From Arcticibacterium luteifluviistationis (lineage in GTDB: Bacteria > Bacteroidota > Bacteroidia > Cytophagales > Spirosomataceae), in assembly GCF_003258705.1 (NCBI RefSeq), contig NZ_CP029480.1, positions 2,418,001-2,482,000 of the forward strand: a stretch of 64,000 nucleotides of DNA, read 5' to 3'. This document shows, in pieces, positions 1 to 34,557 of the stretch. The stretch's first letter is position 1; each line of letters opens with the position of its first letter. Below the pieces are notes generated by a model, which saw nothing but the letters and a program-made list of their open reading frames with translations, did no database searches and was not told the origin of the DNA. The position numbers and the translations under genes were made by a program.

Positions 1-203
1 GAATTTTCATAGAAGGCTACTTTCTTTCTCAGGCTCTCAATTAAATGTGAGTCTCCGCCAGCTCCTATACTTTTCCTTTGGCTAATGAGCATTTCTAAAT
101 ACTCTGAAAGCGTAAGCCCAATCTGCTGAGCCTCCTTTGCTAGGTTAAACTTAAGCTCCCCATGGCACTTAAAACCTACCGTTACTTTGTGTGTGTTTGA
201 CAT
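1..203 (-). CDS. MobC-like ribbon-helix-helix protein (5' part, runs off left edge)
   Basis: The reverse strand opens with ATG at 203 and stays open to the window edge, giving at least 67 residues that begin MSNTHKVTVGFKCHGELK. The pattern of a basic beta strand followed by KFNLAKEAQQIGLTLSEYLEMLI is what is seen in ribbon-helix-helix DNA-binding proteins, including MobC-type relaxosome accessory proteins of Bacteroidota mobilisable elements. The MobC reading rests on the context: a VapE-type protein and an excisionase-like gene lie upstream on the same strand and an integrase is carried further along the same element. The C-terminus is outside the window, so a relaxase partner cannot be checked. 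It could instead be a generic plasmid-type transcription regulator. Confidence 0.5.
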   Translation of the reverse strand, partial: MSNTHKVTVGFKCHGELKFNLAKEAQQIGLTLSEYLEMLISQRKSIGAGGDSHLIESLRKKVAFYEN

Positions 204-261
204 TTGTTTGTGTGTTTGTTAAAATCTAAAATTACGACTAACGCTAACGGTGAATTTGGGT

Positions 262-303
262 TAACCTTGATTAACTCTAGTTAATTAGAGATAACCAAGG
301 TTA
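262..303. repeat. 18-bp imperfect inverted repeat upstream of mobC-like gene
   Basis: Arms 262-279 and 286-303 pair over 18 bp with two mismatches around a 6-base loop. The stretch also carries repeated TTAAC/TTAAT units on both sides. It lies between the start of the mobC-like gene (203) and the end of the 55-aa HTH gene (315), the usual place for an oriT or for an autoregulatory operator of a relaxosome protein. The hairpin is visible; the oriT role is inference. Confidence 0.5.
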
Positions 304-314
304 TTTTCTGTTAA

Positions 315-482
315 TCACTCAGGTTTTCCTAAATGATTGAAGATTAACTCGAGCTGTTTGGGCGTTAGCACCCTCGTTTTCTTATCTAAATTGAGTTCTG
401 GAACCATGCCTAACCATTTGTTTAGGGTAGGTAAACTAACTTCGTATAAAGATGCTAATGTGGATTTATTAATACTTTTCAT
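315..482 (-). CDS. 55-aa helix-turn-helix protein of mobile-element module
   Basis: A short open frame with ATG at 482 and TGA at 317-315 encodes 55 residues. The start, MKSINKSTLASLYEVSLPTL, followed by NKWLGMV, has the layout of a minimal winged or MerR-like HTH: a helix, a turn at the SLPTLNKW segment acting as recognition helix, then a C-terminal LTPKQLELIFNHLG helix. Small proteins of this sort are common next to primase/helicase genes in Bacteroidota islands. It sits between the VapE-like gene and the mobC-like gene on the same strand and is preceded by an unusual set of heptamer repeats (498-565) that may be its own operator. The specific family is not certain; it may regulate the module. 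Confidence 0.55.
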   Translation of the reverse strand: MKSINKSTLASLYEVSLPTLNKWLGMVPELNLDKKTRVLTPKQLELIFNHLGKPE

Positions 483-497
483 ATTGTAAAAATTTGC

Positions 498-565
498 CTA
501 CTCGCCTACTCGATTACTCGTTCAATCAGATTTAGTAAAAGTCGAGTAGACGAGTAAGCGAGTAA
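498..565. repeat. Two inverted triplets of a YTACTCG heptamer at 8-bp period
   Basis: CTACTCG or TTACTCG occurs at 498, 506 and 514 on the plus strand, and its complement CGAGTAR occurs at 543, 551 and 559. Each triplet has an exact 8-bp period and the triplets face each other across 22 bp. Folding gives an imperfect 23-bp hairpin. It lies in the 90-bp gap between the VapE-like stop (573) and the start of the 55-aa HTH gene (482). An iteron-like replication site, an operator array or a transcript hairpin are all possible. Confidence 0.75.
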
Positions 566-572
566 TAACGTT

Positions 573-1754
573 TTAGTTTAAAAGCAGCTTGATGCCTTCT
601 AATTTATTCTTATCTCTCAGTTTGATGTAGTAACCTTTTAATGAATGAGTATTTTTTGAGCGATAATGGCTCTCACGCTTATAATGCAAAGAAGACAAAG
701 CCCTGCCAATTCCATTTAAAGAAATCTTAGCAGTAGAATTGTAGTGAATCTTAATAATCCTTTCAATTTCCGTAGGTGTGAGAATAAAATCATTATCCTC
801 TCTTGTTCCCTCATAGAAATGCTTCCGAATTATCTCTATTTCGGCTGTTTCAACTTGGAATTCTTCATTTGAGATTTCGTTCTGATTTATTTCTTCTGAT
901 GATAGCTCATACTTAAACCCACTGATATAGAGGCAATAAGCTTGACTCCATATTTCATCAATATTAAAATCCTTCTTATAATTCCAGTCAATCTTCTTTA
1001 TCAAGTGACAAATCCACCGGACAGAACCCGTAGGGTCGTTTAGAAAGTTAGTTTGATTTGTAGAACCAACAAAACTAGTTCGACGTGCGGCACGTATTGT
1101 TTTGTCTCCAAAGGGAGGTCTAACCTTAACAAATTGTCTAGATATAAAGCTTTTGACGGAGGTAATCTGTCTTCTATTCAAACTGGCCAATTCGTCATAA
1201 TTAACTATAAAGTTTTCAGCTAAAGCTATTTCTCCATCCTTGTTGGGCTCAATATTCTCCTGATAATACTTTTCTAATCCAGGAGGCATTAACCACCTTA
1301 AAAAAGTCGTTTTCCCGCTATTTTGTTCAGGTTGTACTAACACAAAAATATGTTTATTGAATACGTTATCATTTAATGCACAGGCAACTGTCTGTACCAA
1401 CATTTTCTTAAACGATTCATTAAATTCACCTTGGTCACTGGCATGTACGTAAGAAGCCAAATTATCTATTAAATCATCACCACTCTCAGGCTTGTAAAGC
1501 TTCGCTACTTTATCAAAGTAATCCTGAAACGGATTGATGGAATCTATTAAGTCTGAGAGCATAAAGTACTTTAATGTACGCATTCCTATATTATGGCCTT
1601 CCTTTTCTAGGTTACAGAAAAGTGTATTTTCGTTTAACGTACCTCGCTTTCTCCCGACTACCTCTTCTATTTCTAAGGTTATTTCGTTTCTAATAAGTTT
1701 GGTATTCTTCTCTTCTAAGTATTCTTCTAATTCTGTTATCTTACTTTTTGACAT
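573..1754 (-). CDS. VapE-like P-loop NTPase (mobile-element replication protein)
   Basis: This 393-aa protein has the layout of the virulence-associated protein E family, P-loop NTPases related to superfamily 3 helicases and found in phage satellites and integrative elements. The P-loop QPEQNSGKT lies at about residues 141-149, an acidic FIVNYDELA Walker B-like segment at 182-190, a sensor segment SFVGSTNQ at 227-234 and a likely arginine finger in the DPTGSVRW segment near residue 246. There is no obvious N-terminal primase domain, so this looks like the helicase half only. Its start overlaps the end of the upstream 115-aa gene by 14 bases, indicating translational coupling. The likely role is replication or maintenance of the excised element; the exact activity is inferred from the family. 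Confidence 0.8.
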   Translation of the reverse strand: MSKSKITELEEYLEEKNTKLIRNEITLEIEEVVGRKRGTLNENTLFCNLEKEGHNIGMRTLKYFMLSDLIDSINPFQDYFDKVAKLYKPESGDDLIDNLASYVHASDQGEFNESFKKMLVQTVACALNDNVFNKHIFVLVQPEQNSGKTTFLRWLMPPGLEKYYQENIEPNKDGEIALAENFIVNYDELASLNRRQITSVKSFISRQFVKVRPPFGDKTIRAARRTSFVGSTNQTNFLNDPTGSVRWICHLIKKIDWNYKKDFNIDEIWSQAYCLYISGFKYELSSEEINQNEISNEEFQVETAEIEIIRKHFYEGTREDNDFILTPTEIERIIKIHYNSTAKISLNGIGRALSSLHYKRESHYRSKNTHSLKGYYIKLRDKNKLEGIKLLLN

Positions 1755-2088
1755 GATTTTGTTCTTTTAAATGGTGGATTATTTTTTCTAGTTGCGTTGC
1801 TCTTGTTTTATGAAACTCTAACTCCTCTATCATAGAAGAATAAGATTCATATGTGCTCTGAAAGTACTCTTCCATAGCCATCCAGTATCCTTTAATGGTG
1901 AGCATCAAGCCTTCCAGAGTGTTTAAGTACCTCTCTATGTTTTCTGCTTTTTGAGTAATTTGAGGAGACCACCGTTCTGGTGGCAGTCTCTCCAAATTCC
2001 TTTTGCTAACCTTTAACTCTTCAATAATCTGACAGAGCATGTTTTTTTCTATGGCATAGCATTCTTGCCAGATAGTTAAGCTGTTCAT
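1741..2088 (-). CDS. 115-aa coiled-coil protein of unknown function
   Basis: I do not recognise this protein. It is 115 residues, highly charged and apparently all-helical, with heptad-like leucine/isoleucine spacing over residues 15-30 and 85-110 that suggests coiled coil. It has no signal peptide or membrane segment. It overlaps the excisionase-like gene upstream by 4 bases (ATGA) and the VapE-like gene downstream by 14 bases, so the three genes are translated as one unit. A small helical protein between an excisionase-like HTH gene and a VapE gene fits an accessory role in replication or excision of the element, but nothing in its sequence shows this directly. Confidence 0.6.
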   Translation of the reverse strand: MNSLTIWQECYAIEKNMLCQIIEELKVSKRNLERLPPERWSPQITQKAENIERYLNTLEGLMLTIKGYWMAMEEYFQSTYESYSSMIEELEFHKTRATQLEKIIHHLKEQNHVKK

Positions 2089-2405
2089 CTCTTTGAAGCA
2101 TGTTTTTGGTGGATAAATGAATTCTTAACTACCCGTTGTGATTTTCGCACTAGATAATCGTCTAGCTCTTCCTTCCGAAATCGTAATCGATTCCCTAATT
2201 TGTGGAATTCGATTTTCCCATGGTGGGTAAGTTGGTAAATTGTGCTTTTAGGCACTTGCAAATAAGCGGCAGCTTCTTCAAGCTTTAACCAAGTACTTCC
2301 TTGGCTTTGTGGTTTCGATGAATTGCTTTTCATTAAAACTCTCTCTATCGTTCTTTCCAAAAGAACTTCGAGCTGTGTGGGGGTCATTATGACCAAGTCT
2401 TCCAT
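2085..2405 (-). CDS. Excisionase-type helix-turn-helix protein
   Basis: The C-terminal half is a typical MerR-like excisionase fold (HTH_17 type): WLKLEEAAAYLQVPKSTIYQ, then the wing THHGKIEFHKLGNRLRFRKE and the helix ELDDYLVRK, roughly residues 39-87 counting from ATG at 2405. A TTG at 2438 would add 11 residues, but the ATG start MEDLVIMTP is more natural. Residues 1-35 form a helical oligomerisation-like segment. Proteins of this type act as recombination directionality factors or as regulators of the integrase and mobilisation genes in Bacteroidota elements. The gene leads the three-gene unit with the 115-aa protein and VapE, and a strong palindrome (2482-2511) lies about 80 bases upstream of its start. 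Confidence 0.8.
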   Translation of the reverse strand: MEDLVIMTPTQLEVLLERTIERVLMKSNSSKPQSQGSTWLKLEEAAAYLQVPKSTIYQLTHHGKIEFHKLGNRLRFRKEELDDYLVRKSQRVVKNSFIHQKHASKR

Positions 2406-2475
2406 GTGTGTGTGGTTTGTGTTATTGGACCGTTCCAATAATGCAAACCTAGGGAGTAATAAATTGACTTTTCAC

Positions 2476-2525
2476 TTATCGTCCTAGTACGATATTATTA
2501 TCGTACTAGGAAAAAATTACGATAA
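2476..2525. promoter_or_regulatory. Perfect 13-bp inverted repeat upstream of excisionase-like gene
   Basis: Arms 2482-2494 and 2499-2511 are perfect complements around the loop TTAT, flanked by a second matching pair TTATCG (2476-2481) and CGATAA (2520-2525). No T-run follows the stem on either strand, which argues against a simple intrinsic terminator. Its place, right after the end of the 357-aa gene and before the excisionase-like gene, fits an operator or a transcript-processing hairpin. Confidence 0.6.
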
Positions 2526-3590
2526 ACTTCTATTAATAAGCCATATAACATCCTCCAATTCTTTTTTAATATTTTTCAAAGAAGTTACGTCCATTGTTTG
2601 TTTAGAGCTCAAAAATGGCATCAGTGAAGCAGCTCCATACCCCGCTAGGCAGGCAATCAATCTTGAAAGGTTAGTGTTTGACAATACCTTTGAATCTTTT
2701 ATTATCAACTTAGACCTTCTAAAAAAGCGAAACAAGTAAGCTGTTTCCTTTGCCGAAAGTTTGGTAATTTTATCTCTTCGTGACCTACCTATAGGCTTAT
2801 TTACTAAAAAATCATTACTTACTGACCTGCCTGGTTTAGAATTTGCATGACTAACCTCATCAACTATTAAGTTACTTGTTTCTATATTTCCCTTAAGTTC
2901 TATGACAACTTCGGGGCTGTTTTCAAAGTATTTTAATTTAAGCGGCCAGTTATTGAGATGGAGAATCTCGCTGTATTTAATTTCCATAAGCTGAAGCTGA
3001 CGGGAAACATCTTTATAATTCGTCGTATCAAAAAGTCCGCAGAGATACTGCTTTGAAAAAGATGGCGGTTCTAGGAATAATAAGTAGTATGCAATCACTA
3101 TTTCAAAATCTTCTTTTAGTACCCGAAGCGTTAGTTCACATTTTTGTTCATAAGTGTAAATATCATATGCCCATCGATGCAATTCTTGTATTTCAAGTTC
3201 CTCCTCTGTATACTCATAGTCAAAGTTATTTTCAAAATCGGCTATATCAATATTGTCTATCCCACGCTTTCGGTTTTCATCTAATATTTTTTCCAAAAAA
3301 CTGGCCGGCTTATAAGTATGATTACTTTCTATAAAGAAATCTAGGTCCATCATTTCACCTTTCTCTGTTTTACTTACAAATTGCAGATACTTACCCTTGA
3401 TGTACTCCATATTTTCTCTTGAAAATTTTAACTGTGGTTCCTTAAAATTCACAAGTACCTCCCCTATTTCCATTTTACCATCTATGAAAATAGATTTAGG
3501 CAGAAACTTCCGATTCTTGGTTAAACACTCATATACGTCACTTGTATTAATAGTATTTTCAGAAGTAGGTCTTAGGTAATGTTTTATCAT
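2517..3590 (-). CDS. 357-aa hypothetical protein of accessory region
   Basis: I do not recognise this protein. It is soluble, 357 residues, with no signal peptide or membrane segment. The N-terminal third is mixed alpha/beta, the middle (about 120-180) is acidic and helical with a hydrophobic stretch FEIVIAYYLLFLEPPSF, and the C-terminal 100 residues are basic (KPIGRSRRDKITKLSAKETA) followed by helices. The KLSAKETAYLFRFFRRSKLI segment could contact nucleic acid, but there is no known motif. It stands alone on the minus strand between the defence operon and the replication module, with 256 bases upstream free of genes. Such orphans in this position are often cargo of the element. Confidence 0.6.
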   Translation of the reverse strand: MIKHYLRPTSENTINTSDVYECLTKNRKFLPKSIFIDGKMEIGEVLVNFKEPQLKFSRENMEYIKGKYLQFVSKTEKGEMMDLDFFIESNHTYKPASFLEKILDENRKRGIDNIDIADFENNFDYEYTEEELEIQELHRWAYDIYTYEQKCELTLRVLKEDFEIVIAYYLLFLEPPSFSKQYLCGLFDTTNYKDVSRQLQLMEIKYSEILHLNNWPLKLKYFENSPEVVIELKGNIETSNLIVDEVSHANSKPGRSVSNDFLVNKPIGRSRRDKITKLSAKETAYLFRFFRRSKLIIKDSKVLSNTNLSRLIACLAGYGAASLMPFLSSKQTMDVTSLKNIKKELEDVIWLINRSLS

Positions 3591-3846
3591 ATTTTATTCG
3601 TTTGATTGTATGTACTATTAAACAACAGATTTGGCTGGCATAATGCTATTATCCTAATATTCCTTTCCCCACAACTATTCGGTATCAAATGCTAGATAGA
3701 CTGAAAACCAATACCTCGATTAGAGGACAACTGTTCTATATTTTTTACTTAGATTCTGAAGGTATAGGATAAGGCCATAATCACCTAACTCAAAGATGAA
3801 TAAAAGGGTTTATTCTGCAAATAGAAGCCTACTCAAAGACATTTTC

Positions 3847-4368
3847 CTATTTATTAAACAGCCGTAATTCCAATGAGGCTATGCAATTGTTGTCGATTGG
3901 TTCTAGTTTGGTTTGTGCCAAATTTATGATATCCATGTACTTTCTTGATTCTTTCATGGTAGTCCATGGCTCAATATCAGACTCTTTAATTTTAAGCAGG
4001 TATTGAATTTGCCTATCTACAGGAAAATGAGGTGGTACTTTAACTAGATTTAATACCCATAGATATTTCAAATATAGGTTCAAGACCTTTTGGGCTATTC
4101 CGAATCTTGAATACTCATTATTAATGAAGTCATACTTCTTGAAGAATTGAACTACAGATTCTATGTTTTGTAGATGTATCTCAGGTTTGATTGCCTTTGC
4201 TTCGTAAGCTTTAACAAGCTTGTCTACAGAAGCTCTTAATTCTTTCTTGAAAACCTCTCTTTGAGTTTCAGTAGCTTCTTTTTTGTAAATATTCGACCGC
4301 TGGAATGCTCCTGCTATTGTTAATGCCCAGACTTCGTTTCTTATGAATGTTGATTTCTGATTATCCAT
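3847..4368 (-). CDS. 173-aa protein coupled to Trypco2-like gene, unknown function
   Basis: The protein is 173 residues, soluble and mostly helical. A strongly conserved-looking core reads FGIAQKVLNLYLKYLWVL followed by VPPHFPVDRQI (about residues 88-123). I recall similar AQK...LNLYLKYLW...PPHxPxD cores in uncharacterised bacterial proteins, but cannot verify this here. No nuclease or NTPase motif is visible. Its ATG overlaps the stop of the Trypco2-like gene by one base (TAATG), so the two are translationally coupled and probably work together. It is the last gene of the type I restriction operon, which suggests an accessory defence role. Function unknown. Confidence 0.7.
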   Translation of the reverse strand: MDNQKSTFIRNEVWALTIAGAFQRSNIYKKEATETQREVFKKELRASVDKLVKAYEAKAIKPEIHLQNIESVVQFFKKYDFINNEYSRFGIAQKVLNLYLKYLWVLNLVKVPPHFPVDRQIQYLLKIKESDIEPWTTMKESRKYMDIINLAQTKLEPIDNNCIASLELRLFNK

Positions 4369-4719: not shown

Positions 4720-5982
4720 CTAATTTATTTCTTTCATTAGGTTATCATAAATAAATCTTGCTTTATCATTTTTAGATGGGTAAATAAATGCGTCTGTGAT
4801 TCCATCTTTTTCTAACCTTTCTTTGATATAAGGAACTAAAGATTTATTAATATTTATAGATTCGCAAAAGTTATATTGTCCGTTTTCTGCTTTTGTATAT
4901 TCATCTTTAGACATCTCTAATGCCTGCATTTCTAATGGTAAATTCGGGCTAGAATTAAAGGTAAATGCCCCTTCTTGATTTCTAATATTCTGATTATTAC
5001 TCATAGAGAATATGATTCCAGAAGCTGGGTCATTATCAGAATAATAAGCTATTTGAGTTTTAAGCATGTAATTCAATTTTGTGAGATGTTTAATCAGCCC
5101 AGAGCCATAATATCTACTTACGTCAAATAGAAAGTCATCAGCAAATTCAATTTTCATAGCTTCAAATCTTTTAATGTCTTTTCCACAAATTCTTTTCATT
5201 TCTTGCTCCTTGATTATTGGGTTAAGCCTTTTAAGTGTTCCTTCAAGCATTTTTCGCACATTACCACCATCAAAATAATGCTCTTCGCTATGATAAATGC
5301 TAAAGTAATTTTCAATTTCCTTTGGTGACTTGACTGGATTGACAATTCCATTTACCGCAAAATAAAGAGCGACTGAAAAACTTGAAGTCCAATCTAATAA
5401 AGGTGTAGGACATCCGTGGTGCTGCAAGTACCCCATGACTGAAATATCATTAATAGTATCATCATTTGAAACACCTAGAATACTTTCAATTTCAGTAGAA
5501 AAATTCTTTTCGCCCTCATCTAATGTTCTTTGAATAAATGTTTCATAAGACATTGTTTTGTTCCCCAATTTATTCAAGACCCAATTTCTTTGCAAAGTGC
5601 TATAGAGCCTCCATTTGGCTTCTGACTGACCTCTATATAAATGATTTGTTAATGTTTTAGACTTTTCATAAATCCTGTCGAAATTACTTTCTTTATCGAT
5701 ATTAACCTGTTCAAAAAAATTAAGCTTTTGGTATAAACTATCATACTCAGAAATTATATCTGGCTGATAAAACGGGGGTGATATTCTAGAGCTTAAAAGA
5801 GTACTCATAAATACATTTAAACTGGGGCTTATAGAATCTTCTATTATACAGCCAAAAGAATCCGTCTTTGCTTTAACTAGATCGTCTAAAATATGGACAA
5901 AAGGTATTTTTTCAACACCCCCATTTTCGAGGTATTCTTTAGTTACTTTAACTTTAAGGTCTAAATTTTTATACTTCGCCAT
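4720..5982 (-). CDS. FRG-domain protein
   Basis: An FRG domain is clear at about residues 115-210: LYRGQSEAKWRLYSTLQRN, then GYLQHHGCPTPLLDWTSS and VALYFAV. The F/YRGQ and QHHG.PTPLLDWT blocks are its hallmark. FRG proteins are widespread in defence islands and have been suggested to resemble ADP-ribosyltransferase-like or other effector folds; the biochemical activity is not settled. At 420 residues this one has a 110-residue N-terminal extension and a 200-residue C-terminal part with no motif I know. It follows the GmrSD-like gene by 49 bases and precedes the Trypco2-like gene by 7, so it is in the same transcription unit as the type I restriction genes. Confidence 0.85.
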   Translation of the reverse strand: MAKYKNLDLKVKVTKEYLENGGVEKIPFVHILDDLVKAKTDSFGCIIEDSISPSLNVFMSTLLSSRISPPFYQPDIISEYDSLYQKLNFFEQVNIDKESNFDRIYEKSKTLTNHLYRGQSEAKWRLYSTLQRNWVLNKLGNKTMSYETFIQRTLDEGEKNFSTEIESILGVSNDDTINDISVMGYLQHHGCPTPLLDWTSSFSVALYFAVNGIVNPVKSPKEIENYFSIYHSEEHYFDGGNVRKMLEGTLKRLNPIIKEQEMKRICGKDIKRFEAMKIEFADDFLFDVSRYYGSGLIKHLTKLNYMLKTQIAYYSDNDPASGIIFSMSNNQNIRNQEGAFTFNSSPNLPLEMQALEMSKDEYTKAENGQYNFCESININKSLVPYIKERLEKDGITDAFIYPSKNDKARFIYDNLMKEIN

Positions 5983-6031
5983 AAGTCATTTTGAAGTCTT
6001 TTTACAAAAAATATTTCATAATTATCACAAC

Positions 6032-8104
6032 CTATTCATTCACCTGAATTTCAAATGCTTGTTCTATTAGTTCGATAATATAATCTAATTCAGAACTGTT
6101 TTCTAAACCGACCTCCACATCTCCATTTCCCCATCTACCCAAACCGCTTACGTCTTTACATATGCCATTTGGGTCTCTAATCTGGTCAAATTCAATATTT
6201 AAGGAGAGTCTTAACCTTTTCTTTTGCGGTACAACATCAACAAAATTTGTTTGTGATTTGAAAGCGATATAGAGCTTCTTAAATTCTACTCTTACGGAAG
6301 AGTCAATATTTAAAACTCTTTTCTCTAATGCTTTATATAGCTCTAACATATCTCCCTGTAAATGATCATAATCATCTAAACTGTAGTGAGATTCAGATTT
6401 TGACTGCTCTGGTTCTTGGTAGATAGCTAAAGTAGTTTCATCCAAGACAGGGGCTGTCCATACCTTTAATGCTCTTTGGGCCAAAGTTGCTGCCCTTGTA
6501 TTTATAGCTTCTTCATTCCAAATAGCTTCGCTTCTAACCGACTGGTTTAAAAACAAAGGGCTGTCATTAAAGCCACCTGAAATACTTTTCTTGGTTGAAA
6601 ACGGATGGTCAGACAGCTCGGAATTATAGGCGGTTAAAGAGAGGTTACCCAATGTATGAAGATAAGTCTCCTTAACCGATTTCCAGTTTTCACCTAACTC
6701 TTGTTTCCACTCTACTGAAACCTTTTCATTCTGTGGTATTATGTGTTCTATGGTATAGTTCTCCGCATTTACTAATTCTTTCCTTTTATAGTTCTCCAAA
6801 GACTCCAAAAGGTAGTTTCGCGACCTGAAATTATAGACATCCTTTAGTTTTATCTCCCGTTCAAATTCTACATTATCTGGAAACCTTTTGTAGGAATCTA
6901 AAAGTAAAAAAGCTGCCTTTACAGATTCTAAATAGGTTTCTCTTTTTATATTCTTATAAAATGTAGCGAACGTCTTATTAAGGCTATTAGTAGGAATACC
7001 TACTATGGCTCTTCGAAAAACATAGTTCTTGGTAAGGTTTAATATCTCCTTAAAATCGTCTTTGGTGATAACGTCATCTTCATAATCGCTATAAGCTGCA
7101 ATCAAAAAAGGGTACGAAGTATCCATTTTAAGTTTAGTAAGTGCCTTAAATATAGGCAGTAACGATGTATCTGTTTCTTTTCTTAAAGCAACTCGGACAT
7201 AATATTGGGAGTAACGATAGAGGTCTTTCACGATAGCCTCAACTTCTATAACATCCTTAGTGTTTTTAAAAATGGTTTTGAATTTTTCGTAAACGGAATC
7301 AATGTTTGGAATACTACCCATTTTCATGGTTAAGTAATCCCTCATAAAAAAAGGTAGCGATGTTATGTTCTCTCCGAAACTCTGTTCCATTGGGTACCAA
7401 TATTGCTCATACAGATGTTTTTGAAAGTCTGACTCTTGCCCCATCAAGATATAGTTTCTAATCAAATCGGCTTGAGATAGATTAAGACCTGTGGAGTTAA
7501 GGCTTTCAAAGATAAGTTGTGGGTTATCTTTTTCTCTTTCCAGGGCTACATCTACCACTATAAGTTTTTGAAGGCCTTGATAGATTATGCTTGCGTTTTC
7601 GGCACTGATTTGCTTATAGAAATATTCGAAGTTTTCTATAACCTTTGTTGATGATTTTTCTGGTAAAGGCTTACCCGAAAGTAAACTTTTAAGAGTTTCT
7701 TTATCTCTTTTGGTTAATAGTAACTTATAGTACAATTCATCTTCTTCCTCCGTATTAAACAAGTAATAATTGTTTAATTTTTTTGGCGTGGTGCCAATAT
7801 CAGTATTGGAGTTGTCTTCCAAAAACTTAACCAATGCGGCAATAAGCAGGGTTATAGTAGTTAACCTTTGCTGTCCGTCAATCACTAAGTACTTGTGTAT
7901 TTCAGCAATAGTATGAATATCAGGTTGAAAATAGACGATGGAGCCAATAAAATGACCTTGTTCTGAGTCTGCGGCAGCCTTAATATCTTTTAATATCTGT
8001 ACACATTGTTTGGGCTGCCAACTATATGTTCTTTGATATATGGGGATGACGAACTGTTTAGGTTCTTTAATTATGGATAGTAGATTTTTAGCGGATGCTT
8101 TCAT
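6032..8104 (-). CDS. GmrSD-like DUF262/DUF1524 nuclease with C-terminal DUF5655
   Basis: Three domains are visible in 690 residues. Residues 1-230 are a DUF262 (GmrS-like, ParB/DndB-related) domain with FVIPIYQRTYSW (18-29) and the DGQQRLTT motif (76-83), linked to NTP hydrolysis. Residues about 440-560 are a DUF1524 HNH-type nuclease (GmrD-like) with TIEHIIPQ (451-458) and LGNLSLTAYNSE (485-496), supplying the His-Asn metal-binding nuclease core. Residues about 590-685 match DUF5655, common at the end of such proteins. Related fused GmrSD enzymes cleave modified phage DNA (type IV restriction). Embedding one behind hsdRMS is a known arrangement that would cover both unmodified and modified invaders. 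The start codon lies 30 bases after the hsdS stop. Confidence 0.88.
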   Translation of the reverse strand: MKASAKNLLSIIKEPKQFVIPIYQRTYSWQPKQCVQILKDIKAAADSEQGHFIGSIVYFQPDIHTIAEIHKYLVIDGQQRLTTITLLIAALVKFLEDNSNTDIGTTPKKLNNYYLFNTEEEDELYYKLLLTKRDKETLKSLLSGKPLPEKSSTKVIENFEYFYKQISAENASIIYQGLQKLIVVDVALEREKDNPQLIFESLNSTGLNLSQADLIRNYILMGQESDFQKHLYEQYWYPMEQSFGENITSLPFFMRDYLTMKMGSIPNIDSVYEKFKTIFKNTKDVIEVEAIVKDLYRYSQYYVRVALRKETDTSLLPIFKALTKLKMDTSYPFLIAAYSDYEDDVITKDDFKEILNLTKNYVFRRAIVGIPTNSLNKTFATFYKNIKRETYLESVKAAFLLLDSYKRFPDNVEFEREIKLKDVYNFRSRNYLLESLENYKRKELVNAENYTIEHIIPQNEKVSVEWKQELGENWKSVKETYLHTLGNLSLTAYNSELSDHPFSTKKSISGGFNDSPLFLNQSVRSEAIWNEEAINTRAATLAQRALKVWTAPVLDETTLAIYQEPEQSKSESHYSLDDYDHLQGDMLELYKALEKRVLNIDSSVRVEFKKLYIAFKSQTNFVDVVPQKKRLRLSLNIEFDQIRDPNGICKDVSGLGRWGNGDVEVGLENSSELDYIIELIEQAFEIQVNE

Positions 8105-8134
8105 ATTTATTCTTTTATAAAAACCATTCTAATT

Positions 8135-9370
8135 TTAATTTTCCTCCCCAACCCTAACCTGACCATTCATCAACATTGGCAACAACCAATCTCGTAACTC
8201 CGATAGCTTTTGGTTTTCTACATTATTACCAGATATTTTTTTATTAAACGAGGTTAGAGTTTGATTAATATGGCTTAATTTTTCTCTGTCTTTAGGTAGA
8301 ACAATTCTTAACGCGAGAATATCATTCGGTGAAATTGAAGGGTAAGATGTAACTGCTAAGTTTGCTATTCTTTGTAATTGTTCCGTAACCCACTTTGTTG
8401 TCAAAAAAGAATAAATTAAATCATTAGTAATTAACTTATCCTTTGAACTAAGTTGTGCGTATCCAGTTGAAGCAATCAAGTTACTAACTGGCTGCTTAAT
8501 AAGGCCATAATGGCATTGATTTGGCCTTACAGTTGAATAGAGAATATCATTTTCTCCCACAATTCTTTGTGCTCTACTGGGAATCTTGTCAACATTGGGA
8601 ACTAGCTCCTTTAGCTCATTAATAACATTCTTTGTAAGGTTACTAGTGTCAAGATATCTGAGAACCTTATATCCATTATTTTTCTTGAGGGTATTTTTAT
8701 TACAGTCTAATACTTTCTTTAATGCTACAACCTCCCACCCCTCAGGAATCTCCCTTTTAAGCTCTTTATTATAAACCATTTTCCCACCAGAAGTTTTGTA
8801 TGGTTTTCTTTCTAAAGATGGATTTCCCATTTTTTCTGCGGTGGCCTTATCTATCGGAAAATCAAACTGCACAAACCAATAATCATAAATGAGCTTTGCC
8901 ATGGCTTCTAACTCCGCATTGATTTTGTTGTTTAGTTCTATTTTGGCGTCTAGATCTGAGAGAACTTTGGCTATTTGTATTTGGTATTCTTTTGGTAAAA
9001 ATGGGATTTTAATTTCATGTAAATCATTCCGATTAATACCTGGTACTGCACTTTTGTCTGAGGTTTTTAAATTCCCCAGACTCTTAAGTAAATAGTAGAG
9101 ATATTTCGGAAAATTGCCCTTAAAGTCAGTAGCATATAAAGTTGTATTGTGCGGCCAATAATTTCCATTTATATAGTACATTTCTCCTAAAGTACCATAT
9201 CGCCCAGTTACTAACCCTTCTCCACTACATTTGAATTCATTATGATAACCAGAAATTCCAGAAGAACTAATTATAGGAAATTGACCATTTTCTCTTTTAG
9301 AAGCTGGCAAGTCATAGCCCCTTTTAAAATTAATTATATCTCCTAATCTTTTACTTTTCACTTCCAGCAT
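8135..9370 (-). CDS. hsdS: Type I restriction-modification specificity subunit HsdS
   Basis: At 411 residues this has the two-repeat plan of HsdS: a first target-recognition domain (about 1-150), a conserved coiled-coil spacer (YQIQIAKVLSDLDAKIELNN, near 130-155), a second TRD starting around REIPEGWEVVALKKVL (about 210) and a second spacer helix near the end (EKLSHINQTLTSFNKKI). The subunit determines which bipartite DNA site the HsdM2S methylase and HsdR2M2S nuclease recognise. Its start overlaps the end of hsdM by 20 bases, which implies coupled translation. Only one hsdS is present and no inverted partial copy lies next to it, so I see no sign of specificity switching by inversion here. 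The target site cannot be read from sequence. Confidence 0.93.
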   Translation of the reverse strand: MLEVKSKRLGDIINFKRGYDLPASKRENGQFPIISSSGISGYHNEFKCSGEGLVTGRYGTLGEMYYINGNYWPHNTTLYATDFKGNFPKYLYYLLKSLGNLKTSDKSAVPGINRNDLHEIKIPFLPKEYQIQIAKVLSDLDAKIELNNKINAELEAMAKLIYDYWFVQFDFPIDKATAEKMGNPSLERKPYKTSGGKMVYNKELKREIPEGWEVVALKKVLDCNKNTLKKNNGYKVLRYLDTSNLTKNVINELKELVPNVDKIPSRAQRIVGENDILYSTVRPNQCHYGLIKQPVSNLIASTGYAQLSSKDKLITNDLIYSFLTTKWVTEQLQRIANLAVTSYPSISPNDILALRIVLPKDREKLSHINQTLTSFNKKISGNNVENQKLSELRDWLLPMLMNGQVRVGEEN

Positions 9371-10985
9371 AGACTAATCCTGTTAAGTTTTTTGATATTT
9401 CAATTTGAATTAATCTGGATTCATTGAAAAGAACCTCAAGTTCTTTGTCAAAACTTTCCATTTTTTGTACAAACTCATTTTGAGTTATATCCACATAATC
9501 TATTTTTACTTCAAAATACTGTCCAGCACTTAGAGAATAGTTTTTAGACTTAATATCATCGCAAGTTACAACCACAGAAAAATCATCAATAGGTTCTTTT
9601 GTATTGAATGTATTAATGATAATATCTTCTTCTTCTGGCGATAGCACTGTTTTTTGATTCTTCCCTTCTTTTATGGTTGTGCCAAGATTAGAGGCATCTA
9701 TCAGCACTACATCACCTTTGTTTTCTTTGTCGATAAAAATGATGGAGACATTGGCACTTGTAGAAGCAAAAATATTAGATGGCATACTCACCGCACCAGC
9801 TAGCATTTTTTCGTCTACCAGTTTTTGACGTATCGCCTTATCTATTCCACTCTGTGCCGTTATAAAGCCAGTAGGCACCACCATGGCAGCTTTACCATTA
9901 TCTTTTAGAGAGAATATGATATGCTGTAAAAACAGCAGGTAAATAGCCATAGATTCCTTTTGCTTATTCGGAATCTTTGGTATTCCAGCAAAAAAACGCT
10001 CCTTATTTTCTTTACTATCTAAATCATCTCTGTAATCAGAAAAATCAAGCTTAAATGGGGGGTTGGATACTATATAATCAAAGGTCTCTAGTTTGCCTTT
10101 ATCGTCTTTATGATAAGGTTCAGAAATGGTATTACCCTTTACCACATTTGGGATAGAATGTACCAAATCATTCAAAATCAAATTTAAACGAAGTAGATTA
10201 GATGATTTCTGAGAAATATCTTGCGTATAAATAGTGCATTCATCTTCACCTATCTCGTGAGCTAAATTCATGAGTAAGGAGCCAGAACCTGCCGCTGGGT
10301 CATAACAAGTGACATTGCTCACATCTTCTGGCACCAAACATTTCGCCATAACTTTAGCTACCGCATGAGGCGTAAAATACTCGGCATATTTGCCTCCACT
10401 GTTTGAGTTATAGTCCTTTATTAAATACTCAAAAATGGCTGCATAAAAATCAAACTTCTCTTCAAAAATATGCTCGAAACTAAAGCCTATCAGTTTGTTA
10501 ATAATGGCTTTGCAAAACTCATCTCTTTTATCAGTCACATACTTACTGATATTCTCAAAAAGTACTATTTTCTCCCCTCCATCGGTAATTACAGAAAATA
10601 TATCACTGTTCTCTTTGGCAATATCTAAAAGCGTATTGTCAAAAATATCTGCAAATTTGGGTTCGTTTTGTCGCTTAAAAAGAGAGGATATAAAATGATG
10701 CGGATTAATGCGAGCTGTACTTTCACTTAGCTGCATCATGAGCATTTCATAGTCGTCTGTACTATATGCACTTAAAGCCTCTTCCCAGTTTTCTGCTTTA
10801 GCTATATTAGGGTCTATTTTCTTTACTTCATATACAAACTTATCGTTCAAAAACTTGTACAAAAATACCTGCGTAATAATCTTAAATTCGTTGCCATCAT
10901 TGCCAAGGCCGTAATTAGCACAAACACTTTTCAGGTCGTCTATCAGTGCTTTTGTTTGCGTCTCAAAAGCTATTGTTTTTGTCAT
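9351..10985 (-). CDS. hsdM: Type I restriction-modification methyltransferase subunit HsdM
   Basis: This 544-aa protein has the N-terminal helical HsdM domain (about 1-160) and an N6-adenine methyltransferase domain of the gamma class. The AdoMet motif I reads CYDPAAGSGSLLMN (227-240), the preceding segment GGKYAEYFTPHAVAKVM (197-213) is typical of HsdM, and the catalytic motif IV is SNPPF (307-311). It methylates adenine in both halves of the site set by HsdS, protecting self DNA. The start overlaps the hsdR stop by 4 bases. All motifs are intact and the length is normal, so the enzyme is probably active. Confidence 0.95.
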   Translation of the reverse strand: MTKTIAFETQTKALIDDLKSVCANYGLGNDGNEFKIITQVFLYKFLNDKFVYEVKKIDPNIAKAENWEEALSAYSTDDYEMLMMQLSESTARINPHHFISSLFKRQNEPKFADIFDNTLLDIAKENSDIFSVITDGGEKIVLFENISKYVTDKRDEFCKAIINKLIGFSFEHIFEEKFDFYAAIFEYLIKDYNSNSGGKYAEYFTPHAVAKVMAKCLVPEDVSNVTCYDPAAGSGSLLMNLAHEIGEDECTIYTQDISQKSSNLLRLNLILNDLVHSIPNVVKGNTISEPYHKDDKGKLETFDYIVSNPPFKLDFSDYRDDLDSKENKERFFAGIPKIPNKQKESMAIYLLFLQHIIFSLKDNGKAAMVVPTGFITAQSGIDKAIRQKLVDEKMLAGAVSMPSNIFASTSANVSIIFIDKENKGDVVLIDASNLGTTIKEGKNQKTVLSPEEEDIIINTFNTKEPIDDFSVVVTCDDIKSKNYSLSAGQYFEVKIDYVDITQNEFVQKMESFDKELEVLFNESRLIQIEISKNLTGLVYAGSEK

Positions 10986-13900
10986 GCTACTCTACCGTAA
11001 AATTCGTTCATATATTCTTTTACTATCATTCCGTTTATTCGTTTTGATGCCGCTGCATCCAAAGGAATCTTATGTTTGTTTTTCAATTGGTCAATGACTA
11101 ATCTAACCATCATTTTCTCTACAAAACTCTCATTTTCCAGCATCTTGGAGTTTTTCAGAATGTGTGTATCCACTTCTGTTTTTAAATCTTGTAAAGCCTC
11201 AAAAAGCTTGCTCTCACTATCTGTCAACGGGTTTTTCTCCATTAAGCGTTTATGGAGGCGAGTGTATTTTTCGTCATTCTGGTATTTGGCTTTCAGCAAT
11301 TGGTTTTTCCTTTCTAGCTCTCTGGCCACTTTATAAATGGATTCCAATTCCTTGATGTTGCTCTCCATTTCTTCCTTAGTTACCTCACTTAGGTTTTTCT
11401 TTCTGAAAAGCCTTTCCAGTTCCTCCTTCAAAGATATGAAAACAGGGTCGGCTTGGTCAAAATTGCCGCCTAAAGCTTCTCTAGTTTTTTGTAAAGTGTT
11501 TCTTAAAGCATCTGCCAATACCATCTCTTCTTCCTTAACCTTGGTAAAGGCAAATATTACATCTTCTAAAGCAACATTGAGCAAGTTTGTGGTATCTAAG
11601 TTCTTATCTAATGCTTCTTTGGTATTGATTAACGCAAGGCGATTATTGGCCTCTCTAGACAGTACTGTGAGCTTATTGAAATCAAGCTTATCCAGCATGT
11701 CATAATTACCAGACAAACGAATGAGGTTATAAAGGCTTTTGGCATTGTTTAACACTCGGGTGATTTTTAGCATCTCACCTCGTTCATTTATTTCACTTAC
11801 CTGCTGAGAAAAAACAGCGGCATTTAAGGTGTCAAAATGAAAAAGCACATCTTTAATTTCATTAATCTCTTGGTCTATTTCATCAGGAGATTTGAAGATG
11901 TTGGAATAGTGCTGCATTTCATCTCCCAGCTCAGATTGGAGTTCATTGAAATAGTCTTGATTAGTTTTGTCAAACTCCTTTTGAATATCTGCAAAGTCTA
12001 CAATATAGCCATACCTGAAATTCTCATACCTTCTATTAACACGGGTAAGCATTTGTAATAAGTTATGAGACCTCACCACACGCCCTACATAAAGTTTCTT
12101 TAGCCTTTTGGCATCAAAACCCGTAAGCAACATATTATAAACAAAGAGGAAATCTATTTTTCCATCTTTAAAGTCTTCTATTAATGCTTTTCGCTCTTCA
12201 ACGTCATAAAGTATTACCGCAGCACTTTTTACTTTTCTTGATTGCTTTCTTTTAGCGTTATAAGAAGGTGCTGGTTCAGCTGCTATAGAATAGCTCATAG
12301 TGCCTTCTGCTACCAGCGGAATAATTTCATCTAGTGCGTATTTCTCCTGAAATATCTCATACATCATTTTAGCTTGCTTAGAGGAGTCACAAACCACCAT
12401 ACCTCCAATGGTATCGTCGCCCATAGCCACTCTTGCCTTCTCAAAATCTGTCACTATGTAATCTAACATAGGCTCTACAAATTTAGGATGTGCAAAAACT
12501 TCTTCTTTACTGGATTTCCCCTTTAAGACCTCAATCTCTTCAAGAGCTTTTTGAAGTGTGAGTTTATAGGTGGTTTCTATCTCTTCTCGTATAAGCCTTA
12601 GTGTATAGCCATCTTTTATAGAGGCATTGTAGTAATATTTATGAATATAGCCTCCAAACAGCGATTTGGAATTATAATCATCACCTAAAAGTGGGGTACC
12701 TGTTAAGCCTATTTTAATGGCGTTTGGGTCAGATTCATTCAAATTAGCCAAGAAGCTACCTTTTGGGTTATAACTTCTGTGTACTTCATCTAAGAAATAG
12801 ATTCTCTGAATGTTTAATTGATAATCTGTATTACGTATTACATCAGGGTCGTCTTGAAATTTCTGAATGTTTACTACCGTTATTTCAGCCTTTCCAGAGT
12901 CATTGTGTATAACACTTTTAGACTTAATTTCTCTAGAAAACTCCTCTCTAGAGTTTACATTATGTACTACTAATCCTCTGCTTATAAATTCCTTTCCAGC
13001 CTGAATCATTAAATCAAGCCTGTCTACTATGAAATAGAACTTTGGTATGATTCCTTTCTTTTGGAAATAGGCGGTCATGTAATGCACATTATAATATGCT
13101 AAAGCGGTTTTACCACTGCCCTGCGTATGCCAAATGATACCTTTACGTATTCCTTCATTTAGCTTAGCTTCAATGGCCTTGGTCGCAAATATTTGCGGAT
13201 ACCGCATCACATGCTTTTCTAAGCCTTTATACTCTTTTACATAGGCAAAACCGTACTTCAGAATAAAAGCCAAACGCTCTCTTTGGAACAATGAGGTACA
13301 TATTCTATTGGTAGCTGAATCAGGATTCTTATTGGTAATAAACTCTTGAGAGTTCTTAATACTTATAAGGTTTGTGTCTTTTAAAACTTCAATCTCTTTG
13401 TCTGTATCTTCCTTATTCAGAAGTAGTTCTAAGTCAAAAGTCTCCTCTTCTCTGAAATAATTCAAAACGGGCTTCTTATACGAAGCGGATGCATAAAACG
13501 CTCCTTGTATGGTTTGAGGCGTAGTGTCATCGTACCCCATATTATTGGAGAATACCATGAGCTGCGTAATATTCACAAACTTCCTAAATTTCTTATTCTG
13601 AAATCTGGTGTTAATTCGTTTTTGCTCCGCCAAAATTCCATCCAAATTATTGGGCTTTTTAACCTCAATAAAGAATAAAGGCATTCCATTAATCAGAAGA
13701 ATGATATCAGGACGAAATTCATCGTCGTCCTTTTTATAGGTCAATTCGGTGACAACGTGATAATCGTTATTATCCAAATCATCAAAATCAAAGAATTTAG
13801 TACCAGAGTTTGCCGTCAGTTTTTCAAAGAAAGCCTTTCCTAAATCTTCATTTTCTAAAGAAAGAGATACTTCATCATATACTCGTTTAAGCTCGGCATC

Positions 13901-14065
13901 ATTAAGCTCAGGGTTAAGCTTTGCTATCCTTTGAAAGAATATATCAGTGAAAATATTGGTAGACTCGTCCCATTTCTGATTAGACAGCGATAAATAGGTA
14001 TAGCCTAATCTGATTAGGTGTAAAATTGTAGGGATTTTGACTCTAGAGTCTTCGTTGAATTTCAT
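10982..14065 (-). CDS. hsdR: Type I restriction endonuclease/translocase subunit HsdR
   Basis: The 1027-aa protein carries an N-terminal PD-(D/E)xK nuclease with D120 in EFRPDIILL and E134/K136 in FFIEVKKP, followed by a superfamily 2 motor: Walker A IIWHTQGSGKT (310-320), motif II LDEVHRSY (425-432), motif III GLTGTP (453-458) and later RecA2 motifs including LLTGFDAK and QMLTRVNR. The C-terminal 250 residues are helical, as expected for the part that binds the HsdM2S core. HsdR translocates DNA and cleaves at distance when the site is unmethylated. It is the first gene of the operon; about 210 bases upstream free of genes must hold the promoter. Catalytic residues look intact. Confidence 0.95.
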   Translation of the reverse strand: MKFNEDSRVKIPTILHLIRLGYTYLSLSNQKWDESTNIFTDIFFQRIAKLNPELNDAELKRVYDEVSLSLENEDLGKAFFEKLTANSGTKFFDFDDLDNNDYHVVTELTYKKDDDEFRPDIILLINGMPLFFIEVKKPNNLDGILAEQKRINTRFQNKKFRKFVNITQLMVFSNNMGYDDTTPQTIQGAFYASASYKKPVLNYFREEETFDLELLLNKEDTDKEIEVLKDTNLISIKNSQEFITNKNPDSATNRICTSLFQRERLAFILKYGFAYVKEYKGLEKHVMRYPQIFATKAIEAKLNEGIRKGIIWHTQGSGKTALAYYNVHYMTAYFQKKGIIPKFYFIVDRLDLMIQAGKEFISRGLVVHNVNSREEFSREIKSKSVIHNDSGKAEITVVNIQKFQDDPDVIRNTDYQLNIQRIYFLDEVHRSYNPKGSFLANLNESDPNAIKIGLTGTPLLGDDYNSKSLFGGYIHKYYYNASIKDGYTLRLIREEIETTYKLTLQKALEEIEVLKGKSSKEEVFAHPKFVEPMLDYIVTDFEKARVAMGDDTIGGMVVCDSSKQAKMMYEIFQEKYALDEIIPLVAEGTMSYSIAAEPAPSYNAKRKQSRKVKSAAVILYDVEERKALIEDFKDGKIDFLFVYNMLLTGFDAKRLKKLYVGRVVRSHNLLQMLTRVNRRYENFRYGYIVDFADIQKEFDKTNQDYFNELQSELGDEMQHYSNIFKSPDEIDQEINEIKDVLFHFDTLNAAVFSQQVSEINERGEMLKITRVLNNAKSLYNLIRLSGNYDMLDKLDFNKLTVLSREANNRLALINTKEALDKNLDTTNLLNVALEDVIFAFTKVKEEEMVLADALRNTLQKTREALGGNFDQADPVFISLKEELERLFRKKNLSEVTKEEMESNIKELESIYKVARELERKNQLLKAKYQNDEKYTRLHKRLMEKNPLTDSESKLFEALQDLKTEVDTHILKNSKMLENESFVEKMMVRLVIDQLKNKHKIPLDAAASKRINGMIVKEYMNEFYGRVA

Positions 14066-14908: not shown

Positions 14909-16222
14909 CTACTTCATCTCGCCGTGATTGTGCCCAGCCATAGCTTTACCACCTTCTGGATTCATCATACTAGGTTTGCCGGCCAGCTGAGCTGCCGCAT
15001 CTATGCTAAAAGTGCCATAGGTTACTATTTCCTCACCGTATTTTAAACCTTCTGTAATGATATATGAATCTCCTAGTGATGGCCCTAATGTCACTTCACG
15101 CATGGCAAAACTCATACTTTGTTCATTGAAGGATTTGACATAAACGACTGAACGTTCACCTGTCCACATTACTGCGGACTTTGGAACCACAATATCAGAT
15201 TGACTACCCTTTACCTGACTTAATAACATACCCGTAACAAACATCTCTGGCTTAAGTTTATTTCCTGGATTAGCCGTAACAACTCTTGCCTTAGCCACTC
15301 TAGTGGTAGGGTTAATAAATGGGTCAATAAAACTAATTTTCCCCTTGAATTTTTGACCCGGAAATGCCTGAATGGTGTATTCGATAGGGTCTCCTGTCTT
15401 GATCCAAGTTAAATCACTCTCATAAACATCAAACAATACCCATACTTGAGATAAATTAGCCAATTCAAATAATGAAGAGCCTCTGTTAATGTAATCTCCT
15501 AATTGGATTTTTTTATTAATGACTATTCCATTAATATCGGATAGAATTGGAAATCTTTCTTGAGGCTTTCCTGCAAGCAAAATGTTTTCTATTTGGCTAT
15601 CGCTTAGCTTCCAATTTTTCAATCGTTCTTTTGACGCCGCAAATAATTGAGGTTGCATAGCCTTCATCTTTTGAGCCTCAAATAATTCTTCTTGTGCTGT
15701 CACCAATTCTGGCGAATAAATTTCTGCAATAACTTTCCCTTTCGATACATATTCCCCTGTGGTATTGATATACAACTTCTCCACTCTTCCAGAAATGTGT
15801 GCTGTTTGTGTAGAAACAGATCGCTCGTCTACCTGAATTTTACCAGACAAACGTAACTCTTTGGTTGCTTTTCCTTTTTCAATGATCGCTGTTTGCACGT
15901 TTGCCAATTGCATTGCTGTAGGAGACATCTTTACTTCCATCGGATTTTCATCATCTGAATCGCCCATATCTACAGGTATTAAATCCATTCCACAGAGAGG
16001 ACACGAGCCCGGTTCACCCTGCCTAATTTGTGGATGCATAGAACATGTCCAGACTTCTGAGCCATTAGCCATGGAGTGATTGTGCTCATCTTGAACTGCT
16101 TTACCCTCACCAAAAAACAACCAACCAAAGAATAAACCTAGGATTAGAGTTGAGAGGGCAAACAGGAGTGTTGGTCGGTTTACACTTTTCATTTTCTTAA
16201 AATTCCATTTTATCTTTTTCAT
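14909..16222 (-). CDS. cusB: CusB-like RND periplasmic adaptor with HMBD
   Basis: This 437-aa membrane-fusion protein starts with a basic N-terminus and a single membrane anchor (about 18-37), then a His-rich stretch and a heavy-metal-binding domain (HMBD) with WTCSMHP, then SCPLCGMDL (about 58-81). The rest is an RND adaptor: barrel-sandwich hybrid halves flank a helical hairpin (AQEELFEAQKMKAMQ..., about 170-210), then the beta-barrel FDVYESDLTWIKTG and a membrane-proximal domain. It should bridge the CusA-like pump to the TolC-type channel and may pass Cu(I)/Ag(I) from the HMBD. It starts 4 bases after the P-type ATPase stop, so the two are cotranscribed. Its partner pump gene is two genes further upstream. 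Confidence 0.88.
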   Translation of the reverse strand: MKKIKWNFKKMKSVNRPTLLFALSTLILGLFFGWLFFGEGKAVQDEHNHSMANGSEVWTCSMHPQIRQGEPGSCPLCGMDLIPVDMGDSDDENPMEVKMSPTAMQLANVQTAIIEKGKATKELRLSGKIQVDERSVSTQTAHISGRVEKLYINTTGEYVSKGKVIAEIYSPELVTAQEELFEAQKMKAMQPQLFAASKERLKNWKLSDSQIENILLAGKPQERFPILSDINGIVINKKIQLGDYINRGSSLFELANLSQVWVLFDVYESDLTWIKTGDPIEYTIQAFPGQKFKGKISFIDPFINPTTRVAKARVVTANPGNKLKPEMFVTGMLLSQVKGSQSDIVVPKSAVMWTGERSVVYVKSFNEQSMSFAMREVTLGPSLGDSYIITEGLKYGEEIVTYGTFSIDAAAQLAGKPSMMNPEGGKAMAGHNHGEMK

Positions 16223-16226
16223 ACAT

Positions 16227-18713: not shown

Positions 18714-18727
18714 TTTTTTAAAATTAA

Positions 18728-18757
18728 ATGAGGGTACAACCTTTATTATACCCTCAT
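18728..18757 (-). terminator. Intrinsic terminator after the HMBD lipoprotein gene
   Basis: On the minus strand a 9-bp stem (ATGAGGGTA/TACCCTCAT, 18728-18736 with 18749-18757) closes a 12-base loop and is followed by TTTAATTTT. It lies 9 bases after the stop of the small lipoprotein gene and before copA, so it may end or attenuate the upstream transcript and set copA-cusB apart. Confidence 0.65.
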
Positions 18758-18766
18758 AATTATAAA

Positions 18767-19057
18767 CTAGTCATTATTCATACTTTCATCCGTTGGCTTT
18801 AAATCCATTTTACAGATGGAACATTTGTCTCCGTCAGCACCTGTAATTTCAGGATGCATAGGGCAAGCGTAAATTGTTTCAGCCATTTCCATACCTTCAT
18901 GATTCATGTCGTCATGATTCATTTCACCATGTTCTTCGCCGTCCATGTGTTCGTGTGATTCTTCATTGTTCTCTGCACTTCCACAAGAGCTAAATATTAA
19001 AGCTGAAGAGAATAAGAAAGTAGATGACAGGGCGATTGCTAAAATTGATTTTTTCAT
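18767..19057 (-). CDS. Small periplasmic HMBD metal-binding lipoprotein
   Basis: A 96-aa secreted protein. The signal sequence [20 protein letters not shown] ends in a lipobox-like IFSSC (Cys near residue 25). A His/Glu/Met-rich linker ([24 protein letters not shown]) follows, then one [12 protein letters not shown]...CSICKMDL. Such stand-alone HMBD proteins are thought to capture Cu(I)/Ag(I) or related metals in the periplasm and hand them to Cus-type adaptors. It is 23 bases after the TolC-family gene and is the last gene of the cusA-tolC transcript before the terminator at 18728-18757. The role as a metallochaperone is inferred from composition and place. Confidence 0.8.
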
Positions 19058-19080
19058 TTTTGAAATTGATTTGTTAAAAG

Positions 19081-24131: not shown

Positions 24132-24218
24132 ATCAATAGATAACATTAAGAAATTAATGTTTTAAGACATAGTCATGCCTTATGGTCTGTTATTACAGAC
24201 CTATTCTATGATAGTGTA

Positions 24219-28030: not shown

Positions 28031-28042
28031 TTTATGCTGTTT

Positions 28043-29545: not shown

Positions 29546-29552
29546 ATTTATA

Positions 29553-29840: not shown

Positions 29841-29857
29841 TGTCTTTTTTTTATGTG

Positions 29858-34328: not shown

Positions 34329-34363
34329 TGTCGTTTAAAATTAGAATGTGATAATTTGTCTAG

Positions 34364-34387
34364 GGTTGCAATACAGGTTGCAATACA
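34364..34387. repeat. Tandem 12-bp direct repeat upstream of the integrase
   Basis: GGTTGCAATACA is present twice without a gap (34364-34375, 34376-34387), between the integrase start and the tRNA scar. Position and form fit arm-type binding sites for the integrase or its excisionase, but this is inference. Confidence 0.6.
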
Positions 34388-34511
34388 AATCTACAAAATA
34401 GGCAAACACAAAACTAAATAAATAAAAACAAAAATTACACAATGACCATATATTCAGTCATTTATACGAAATTCTTAATTTTAACAAAAATAGAAAAAAC
34501 CTATTTTGACC

Positions 34512-34555: not shown

Positions 34556-34557
34556 CT

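Follow-up and report, generated by a model that had tools for sequence, protein, structure and literature searches.

Close to the left end of the window, as we call the whole 64-kb stretch of DNA analyzed here, six copies of the heptamer YTACTCG lie between two genes, and the question raised by this locus is which protein, if any, reads them. Three copies on the plus strand (CTACTCG, CTACTCG, and TTACTCG; positions 498–504, 506–512, and 514–520) form a first triplet at 498–520 with a period of 8 bp. The second triplet, at 543–565, is inverted and has the same period; it consists of one CTACTCG and two TTACTCG copies on the minus strand (543–549, 551–557, and 559–565). The 22-bp centre (521–542) has only 5 G or C residues and is a candidate melting site. 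It contains AATCAGATTTAGTAA, which bears a loose likeness to a TGATWWTCA...TTA block found in some relatives. This is the geometry described by the sequence-only reading, two facing triplets at an exact 8-bp period and 22 bp apart, and all its positions were confirmed.

The number of copies is what chance would give, with six YTACTCG in the window against 6.5 expected. However, all six lie within 68 bp in two facing triplets with exact 8-bp spacing, so that the non-random feature is their clustering and spacing and not their number. Across the 5,379,839-bp genome, TACTCGNNTACTCGNNTACTCG matches at these two triplets and nowhere else, and the reversed control pattern does not match at all. A chance origin of the array is ruled out by this whole-genome pattern search. 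The sequence-only reading would have been refuted if the heptamer were common elsewhere at similar spacing; this is not the case, as such a triple occurs nowhere else in the 5.38-Mb genome. In a generic 7-mer shuffle test, the array is not significant (p = 0.15) because the degenerate first position splits the six copies three and three; its significance therefore rests on the spacing and on the whole-genome search. With six copies in about 66–68 bp, it is far shorter than the arrays of most relatives and resembles the short form of locus L064. Being so short, it could be a remnant.

The array is contained in the 90 bp separating the stop codon of a VapE-type gene from the start of a 55-aa ORF. 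The VapE-type gene (573–1754, minus strand) encodes a 393-aa AAA+ helicase (Pfam PF05272, E = 2.1e-37) that we propose to be a self-loading replication initiator on the basis of this profile match and of its predicted fold. Only 7 bases separate the end of the array (565) from the last base of the stop codon (573), and the repeats are therefore immediately 3′ of the gene. The 55-aa ORF (315–482, minus strand) belongs to the DUF4248 family (PF14053, E = 1.1e-6) and is probably not the reader of the array. The same gene cluster encodes an HTH_17 excisionase-like protein (2085–2438, minus strand; PF12728, E = 2.2e-15; phrog_66, excisionase and transcriptional regulator). A Pfam primase domain was found in none of the seven other window proteins scanned alongside VapE; in a distant relative (L085), primase-associated domains are carried by the same protein as VapE. 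We consider it highly probable that the array is the iteron replication origin of an integrated mobile element, which the adjacent VapE-type helicase would bind as its initiator.

The AlphaFold2 model of the 393-aa protein has a pLDDT of 94 and a pTM of 0.89. Its residues 326–379 (window 618–779, minus strand) form a predicted C-terminal domain with helices at 327–337 and 346–355 followed by strands at 360–364 and 371–379, an order of elements that we read as a winged helix. The six best fold matches in the PDB are the six chains of 7pds, PriRep1 with double-stranded DNA (E down to 6.9e-15, TM 0.65–0.69 by query). Similarly, the family profile matched 7pds over positions 45–269 (E = 4.1e-25), which was its only PDB match at E ≤ 0.01. 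The record is named "Similar to D. nodosus vapE", and its PriRep1 is presumably of SaPI origin. These predictions make the candidate initiator a relative of the Rep proteins of SaPIs: an AAA+ helicase that carries a DNA-binding domain at its C-terminus.

The element carrying this gene is an island of about 54.9 kb (genome contig positions 2397635–2452557), of which window positions 1–34557 are the right part. A tyrosine integrase gene lies at its right end (32961–34328, minus strand; PF00589, E = 3.3e-17). At the right boundary, 46 bp from the 3′ part of a tRNA-Met gene are repeated (34512–34557, plus strand); the matching left copy belongs to the intact tRNA-Met gene outside the window (contig positions 2397635–2397680). 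This pair was found after the 3′ end of a tRNA had been spotted by eye to the right of the integrase gene; comparison of positions 13001–18000 of L002 with window positions 34301–38000 by 13-mers had given no convincing pair of end repeats, nor had 9-mers in narrower stretches. By reading, the left 20 kb of the island contains mostly metabolic-looking genes, and the island may therefore be composite. Window positions 4720–14065 hold a defence-like block with an FRG-domain protein (PF08867), a GmrSD-type enzyme (PF03235/PF07510), and apparent type I restriction-modification genes, the specificity subunit being identified by a test for PF01420 and the other two by reading. Between this block and the integrase gene (14909–31042) lies what reads as heavy-metal efflux cargo: a copper-type P-ATPase, RND pumps, and outer-membrane factors.

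Homologs of the VapE-type protein are encoded in 73 of the 222 genomes of the same family, Spirosomataceae, including the genome of the window. We took 90 family loci, leaving out the homolog places G081, G076:C18, G176, and G092. Three loci without a tblastn match (L088, L091, and L092) and one that was too short (L079) were set aside, so that 86 entered the array test. In this test, each locus supplied its own most frequent 7-mer from the 300 bp spanning and following the stop codon, with significance set at p ≤ 0.005 against 200 dinucleotide shuffles. A significant array follows the vapE stop codon in 64 of the 86 loci, some of which are close relatives of one another. The controls gave 0 of 86 in the middle of the gene and 0 of 82 at 600–900 bp downstream.

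The arrangement extends beyond the family. Named genomes gave no match when searched with the window protein alone; searched with alignment A2, they yielded 80 loci, many of which coincide with records of the family loci. For the outside set, we kept loci less than 85% identical to each other and to the alignment of family proteins described below (A1). The 122 rows obtained comprise 111 from outside the family and 11 distant family loci, several of which had already been tested. By the same test, 55 of the 111 outside loci have an array, compared with 2 of 111 in mid-gene controls, both in class- or phylum-level genomes. The positive loci are distributed among named genomes (15/27), class- or phylum-level genomes (13/37), viral contigs (25/41), and phage or plasmid records (2/6). 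Eight of the 11 distant family members also passed. Among phages, GTTACAC and TGGAACA are the words of the arrays in FPSV-S8 and pippi8-1 of Flavobacterium; phi17:1, in which TGACCAG occurs a few times, failed the test (p = 0.34); and no array was seen after vapE in phi38:2, nor in a Bacteroides plasmid and a Terrisporobacter plasmid. The test was failed by 22 of the 86 family loci and 56 of the 111 outside loci, some of which, by reading, have divergent arrays that split the 7-mer. The arrangement is thus frequent and not universal. The expectation that related elements share the array was accordingly borne out in part: many relatives have one, usually of another word, and some have none. One genome (G391) has six VapE-family matches (L115, L121, and L123–L126), none with a significant array.

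The arrays of the relatives have common features despite the diversity of their words. These words include TTACTCG, TTACTACA, TCACTACA, TACTTAGT, TTACCTA, TTACCTG, and TTACCACA, as well as TTACAACA, TGACTACA, TGACCGCA, TTGCTACC, TAAGCCA, TGTCACC, and others. Among 65 arrays to which a repeat label could be given, 55 open with an inward-pointing copy and 63 close with one. Same-strand neighbours at most 14 bp apart are most often spaced at 8 bp (71 of 207), and 55 of the 65 arrays contain 6 to 12 copies, mostly spread over at least 200 bp. Between the iteron sets of some relatives (e.g., L024 and L021), we observed a near-palindrome TGATWWTCA, often followed by TTA and enriched about ten-fold over controls. 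It occurs 0.99 times per kb downstream of vapE, 0.08 in genes, and 0.11 further downstream, densities uncorrected for composition, and is exact in only 16 of the 65 loci. We therefore give it little weight; this block is possibly a second protein site or a melting element. The array begins inside the 3′ coding end of vapE in several loci, among them L006–L010, L012, L042, L057, and L058, so that the last codons partly constrain the repeat word. L013 has an expanded array downstream of vapE, with 23 TACTTA (overlaps counted), 14 of them in one same-strand run.

We compared the repeat words with the protein sequences in alignment A1, which has 74 rows. A repeat label, defined as at least four copies of a listed core, was given to 65 rows, including L004, which has three copies and was added by hand; 51 rows remained after removal of near-identical ones. 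The list of cores was drawn up by eye from the printed sequence and was not blind. When the 65 rows are placed on a tree of the helicase core, 18 changes of the repeat core are counted; 300 shuffles of the labels gave 36 on average and never fewer than 31. The repeat core therefore evolves with the gene, yet changes often. Among the segments tried, word distance is best fitted by residues 361–372, in the wing (partial r = 0.354 over the 51 non-redundant rows with whole-protein distance removed; family-wise p = 0.0005, by permutations that ignore relatedness). With permutations of the same kind, residues 205–216 of the helicase core (window 1107–1142) also track the word (partial r = 0.26, p = 0.001). 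Likewise, when the protein is divided into seven broad segments, the winged helix (partial r = 0.218) and residues 161–230 (0.206) are about equal, again ignoring relatedness. In a tree-aware simulation over 335 columns, the top three by z-score are 371, 364, and 370, all in the wing. Residue 371 reaches p = 0.0007 alone and 0.064 family-wise; an independent-pairs test of this residue found only three pairs and has no power.

Of all columns in these covariation tests, residue 371, a serine in the window protein (codon at 642–644, minus strand), shows the strongest link to the repeat word. In A1, all 21 TACTCG rows have S or T there. P is found in 19 of the 22 TACTAC rows, the other 3 having S, and in every one of the 3 CACTAC rows; 8 of the 10 rows whose words end in TA have Q. 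The window combines TACTCG with S371, like a distant TACTCG clade, and its nearest relative, L004 (46% identical), combines a TACTTA word with C371. Outside A1, we took for each row the most frequent word of one general form and scored, with at least four copies each, the classes fixed from A1 (TACTCG, TACTAC, and TACTTA/TACCTA). The residue is as expected in 18 of the 19 scored rows, some of which are related by descent: S in all 3 with TACTCG, P in 8 of 9 with TACTAC (the ninth has A, and a tenth row is gapped), and Q in 7 of 7 with TACCTA or TACTTA. By reading, Q goes with TTACCTA in Salegentibacter, Christiangramia, Salinimicrobium, Flavobacterium, and similar genera, and homologs in these genera with TTACCC have mostly R or G (E in L280). 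The rule is broken by other words: residue 371 is S or T in rows with TACCAC or GACTAC, Q with GATTAC, T with GACCAC, V with TACAAC, and T or K with AACCTA, the word of two viral contigs. Residue 371 is therefore not a general code for the last two bases.

These observations bear on the other ways in which the array could be explained. Facing short repeats are also typical of operators, and the 55-aa ORF begins just downstream of the array; the DUF4248 protein, the HTH_17 protein, or VapE itself could bind it and control transcription around the end of vapE. Initiators may autoregulate. However, the array adjoins the 3′ end of vapE, the wing of the encoded protein is what its word tracks, and 6 to 12 copies would be a large number for an operator. 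Moreover, of 87 family loci, only two, the window and L004, were found to have a DUF4248 relative in the 900 bp that follow vapE; a third case, outside the family (L102), was seen by eye. An operator for the 55-aa HTH protein, as the sequence-only reading had suggested, consequently fails as a general explanation, and we judge transcriptional control of any of these kinds very improbable. The same reading had also considered a structured 3′ end of the vapE mRNA, in which the inverted triplets would make a hairpin that terminates transcription or stabilizes the message. The window copy is predicted to fold as RNA (−35.4 kcal/mol, z-score −7.4, with none of 200 shuffles as good), its two arms being a 22-nt inverted repeat with 86% complementarity. 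Yet the mismatches between the printed arms affect three of the four inter-core spacer bases and none of the 18 core bases, and their restriction to bases between cores indicates that the words are conserved rather than the stem. Direct repeats are needless for a hairpin, whereas here one word recurs on both strands and differs between elements; many arrays are long, of mixed orientation, and offer no single stem; and window positions 1–4000 have no Rfam match at the gathering threshold. The window copy may form a hairpin, but the direct repeats, the shared word, and its link to the wing are left unexplained by an RNA element, which seems to us very improbable.

A site of recombination or transfer, either an attachment site or an oriT, would suit an island integrated in a tRNA gene, and part of a neighbouring 115-aa protein inside the window gives a weak NikA-like match (E = 0.033). 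This match is lost at E ≤ 0.01 when the whole 115-aa protein is used. The ends of the island are formed by the different, 46-bp tRNA repeat, and PF03432, the sole relaxase family searched, is absent from the genome; both results disfavor such a site. The array, in addition, goes with VapE and with its wing, and we regard a role in recombination or transfer as extremely improbable.

The iteron reading of the array is, conversely, well supported: repeats accompany vapE in many relatives, face inward around an AT-rich centre, and have a word that tracks the wing of the helicase. From the anatomy of the array, its association with VapE genes, the fold predicted for the helicase, and the covariation of word and wing, we infer binding by VapE, ring assembly, melting, and replication. 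The C-terminal winged helix of VapE would read the TACTCG repeats, and the two facing sets would position helicase rings (one hexamer or two) so that they flank the AT-rich centre. The helicase would then melt this centre and unwind outward, allowing the excised element to replicate. Related elements would use words of their own, the helicase wing having changed along with the word.

A broader proposal, to which we give even chances, is that the VapE helicases of many Bacteroidota elements and phages are self-loading initiators, each reading a private word beside its own gene. A few wing residues, 371 foremost, would set part of the word and give rise to dozens of mutually blind origin specificities. 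The same evenly balanced proposal would assign S or T to TACTCG, P to the CTAC of T/CACTAC, Q to TACTTA or TACCTA, and R or G to TTACCC, with other residues for other words. Word diversification would perhaps be driven by incompatibility between co-resident elements or by rival nucleases attacking origins. Avoidance of a same word between co-resident elements, judged by eye and not counted, gave a mixed picture.

A self-loading helicase with an adjacent iteron origin is of a kind already known. A search for literature on VapE or VirE with iterons, repeats, or Bacteroidota, in which many subscription papers were out of reach, gave, among the papers listed, none whose entry describes such a system. 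To the extent that this search can tell, neither the spread of the arrangement over VapE genes of Bacteroidota nor the apparent wing–word link has been described. Many genes annotated only as "virulence-associated protein E" would thereby receive a testable function, that of an origin-reading replication initiator, and the position of the origin could be predicted in such elements. They would also provide a natural series of initiator–origin pairs whose DNA specificity appears to depend on a small wing; such a series could serve studies of replicon incompatibility and the construction of new Bacteroidota replicons.

Classical iteron plasmids of the RepA_N or RepE/TrfA type have long direct iterons, of about 20 bp or more, and a Rep protein that is not a helicase. 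The window does not match them, as its repeats are of 7 bp and in facing sets, and the neighbouring initiator candidate is a helicase. A closer parallel in one respect is RepA of PLE, the Vibrio cholerae satellite: its DNA-binding domain is reported to covary with the origin, and the PLE replicon types to need cognate partners (PMC8263062). RepA differs in belonging to the RepA_N family and in not being a predicted helicase or primase (PMC7145576). The PLE iterons, moreover, are semi-palindromic and of about 30 bp, and there are two replicon groups rather than many words.

The helicases of SaPIs and SCCmec elements are reported to bind iterons directly 3′ of their own gene by their C-terminal domain (PMC7581432). 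The arrangement of the window resembles that of SCCmec Cch2 and its putative origin: this helicase, as we suppose VapE to do, uses the domain to bind short iterons that directly follow its own gene. Cch2 differs by its Primase_Cterm/D5-type domain, by a polymerase-type primase pair in its operon, and by having three AAGTG iterons within a direct-repeat region of 23 bp, with inverted repeats dispensable for binding. In the origins shown for Escherichia coli PICIs, two iteron sets flank an AT-rich region, and one pri-rep-ori segment drives plasmid replication (PMC6092414, a paper whose main text does not contain the string "Bacteroid"). The window differs from SaPI and PICI Rep-ori modules by its host, a member of the Bacteroidota (Spirosomataceae) and not a staphylococcus or an enterobacterium, by its minimal 3 + 3 array, and by the lack of a recognized primase beside the helicase. 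It also lies in a 54.9-kb tRNA-Met island that carries, by reading, metal-efflux and defence genes; the likeness covers the Rep-ori, and we do not class the island as a whole as a PICI. Within this scope, features of the SaPI and Gram-negative PICI modules are present here: iterons directly 3′ of the gene for a helicase-initiator, two sets of short repeats (3 + 3) around an AT-rich region (22 bp, 5 G or C), and an initiator predicted to have the PriRep1 fold with a C-terminal domain suited to DNA binding.
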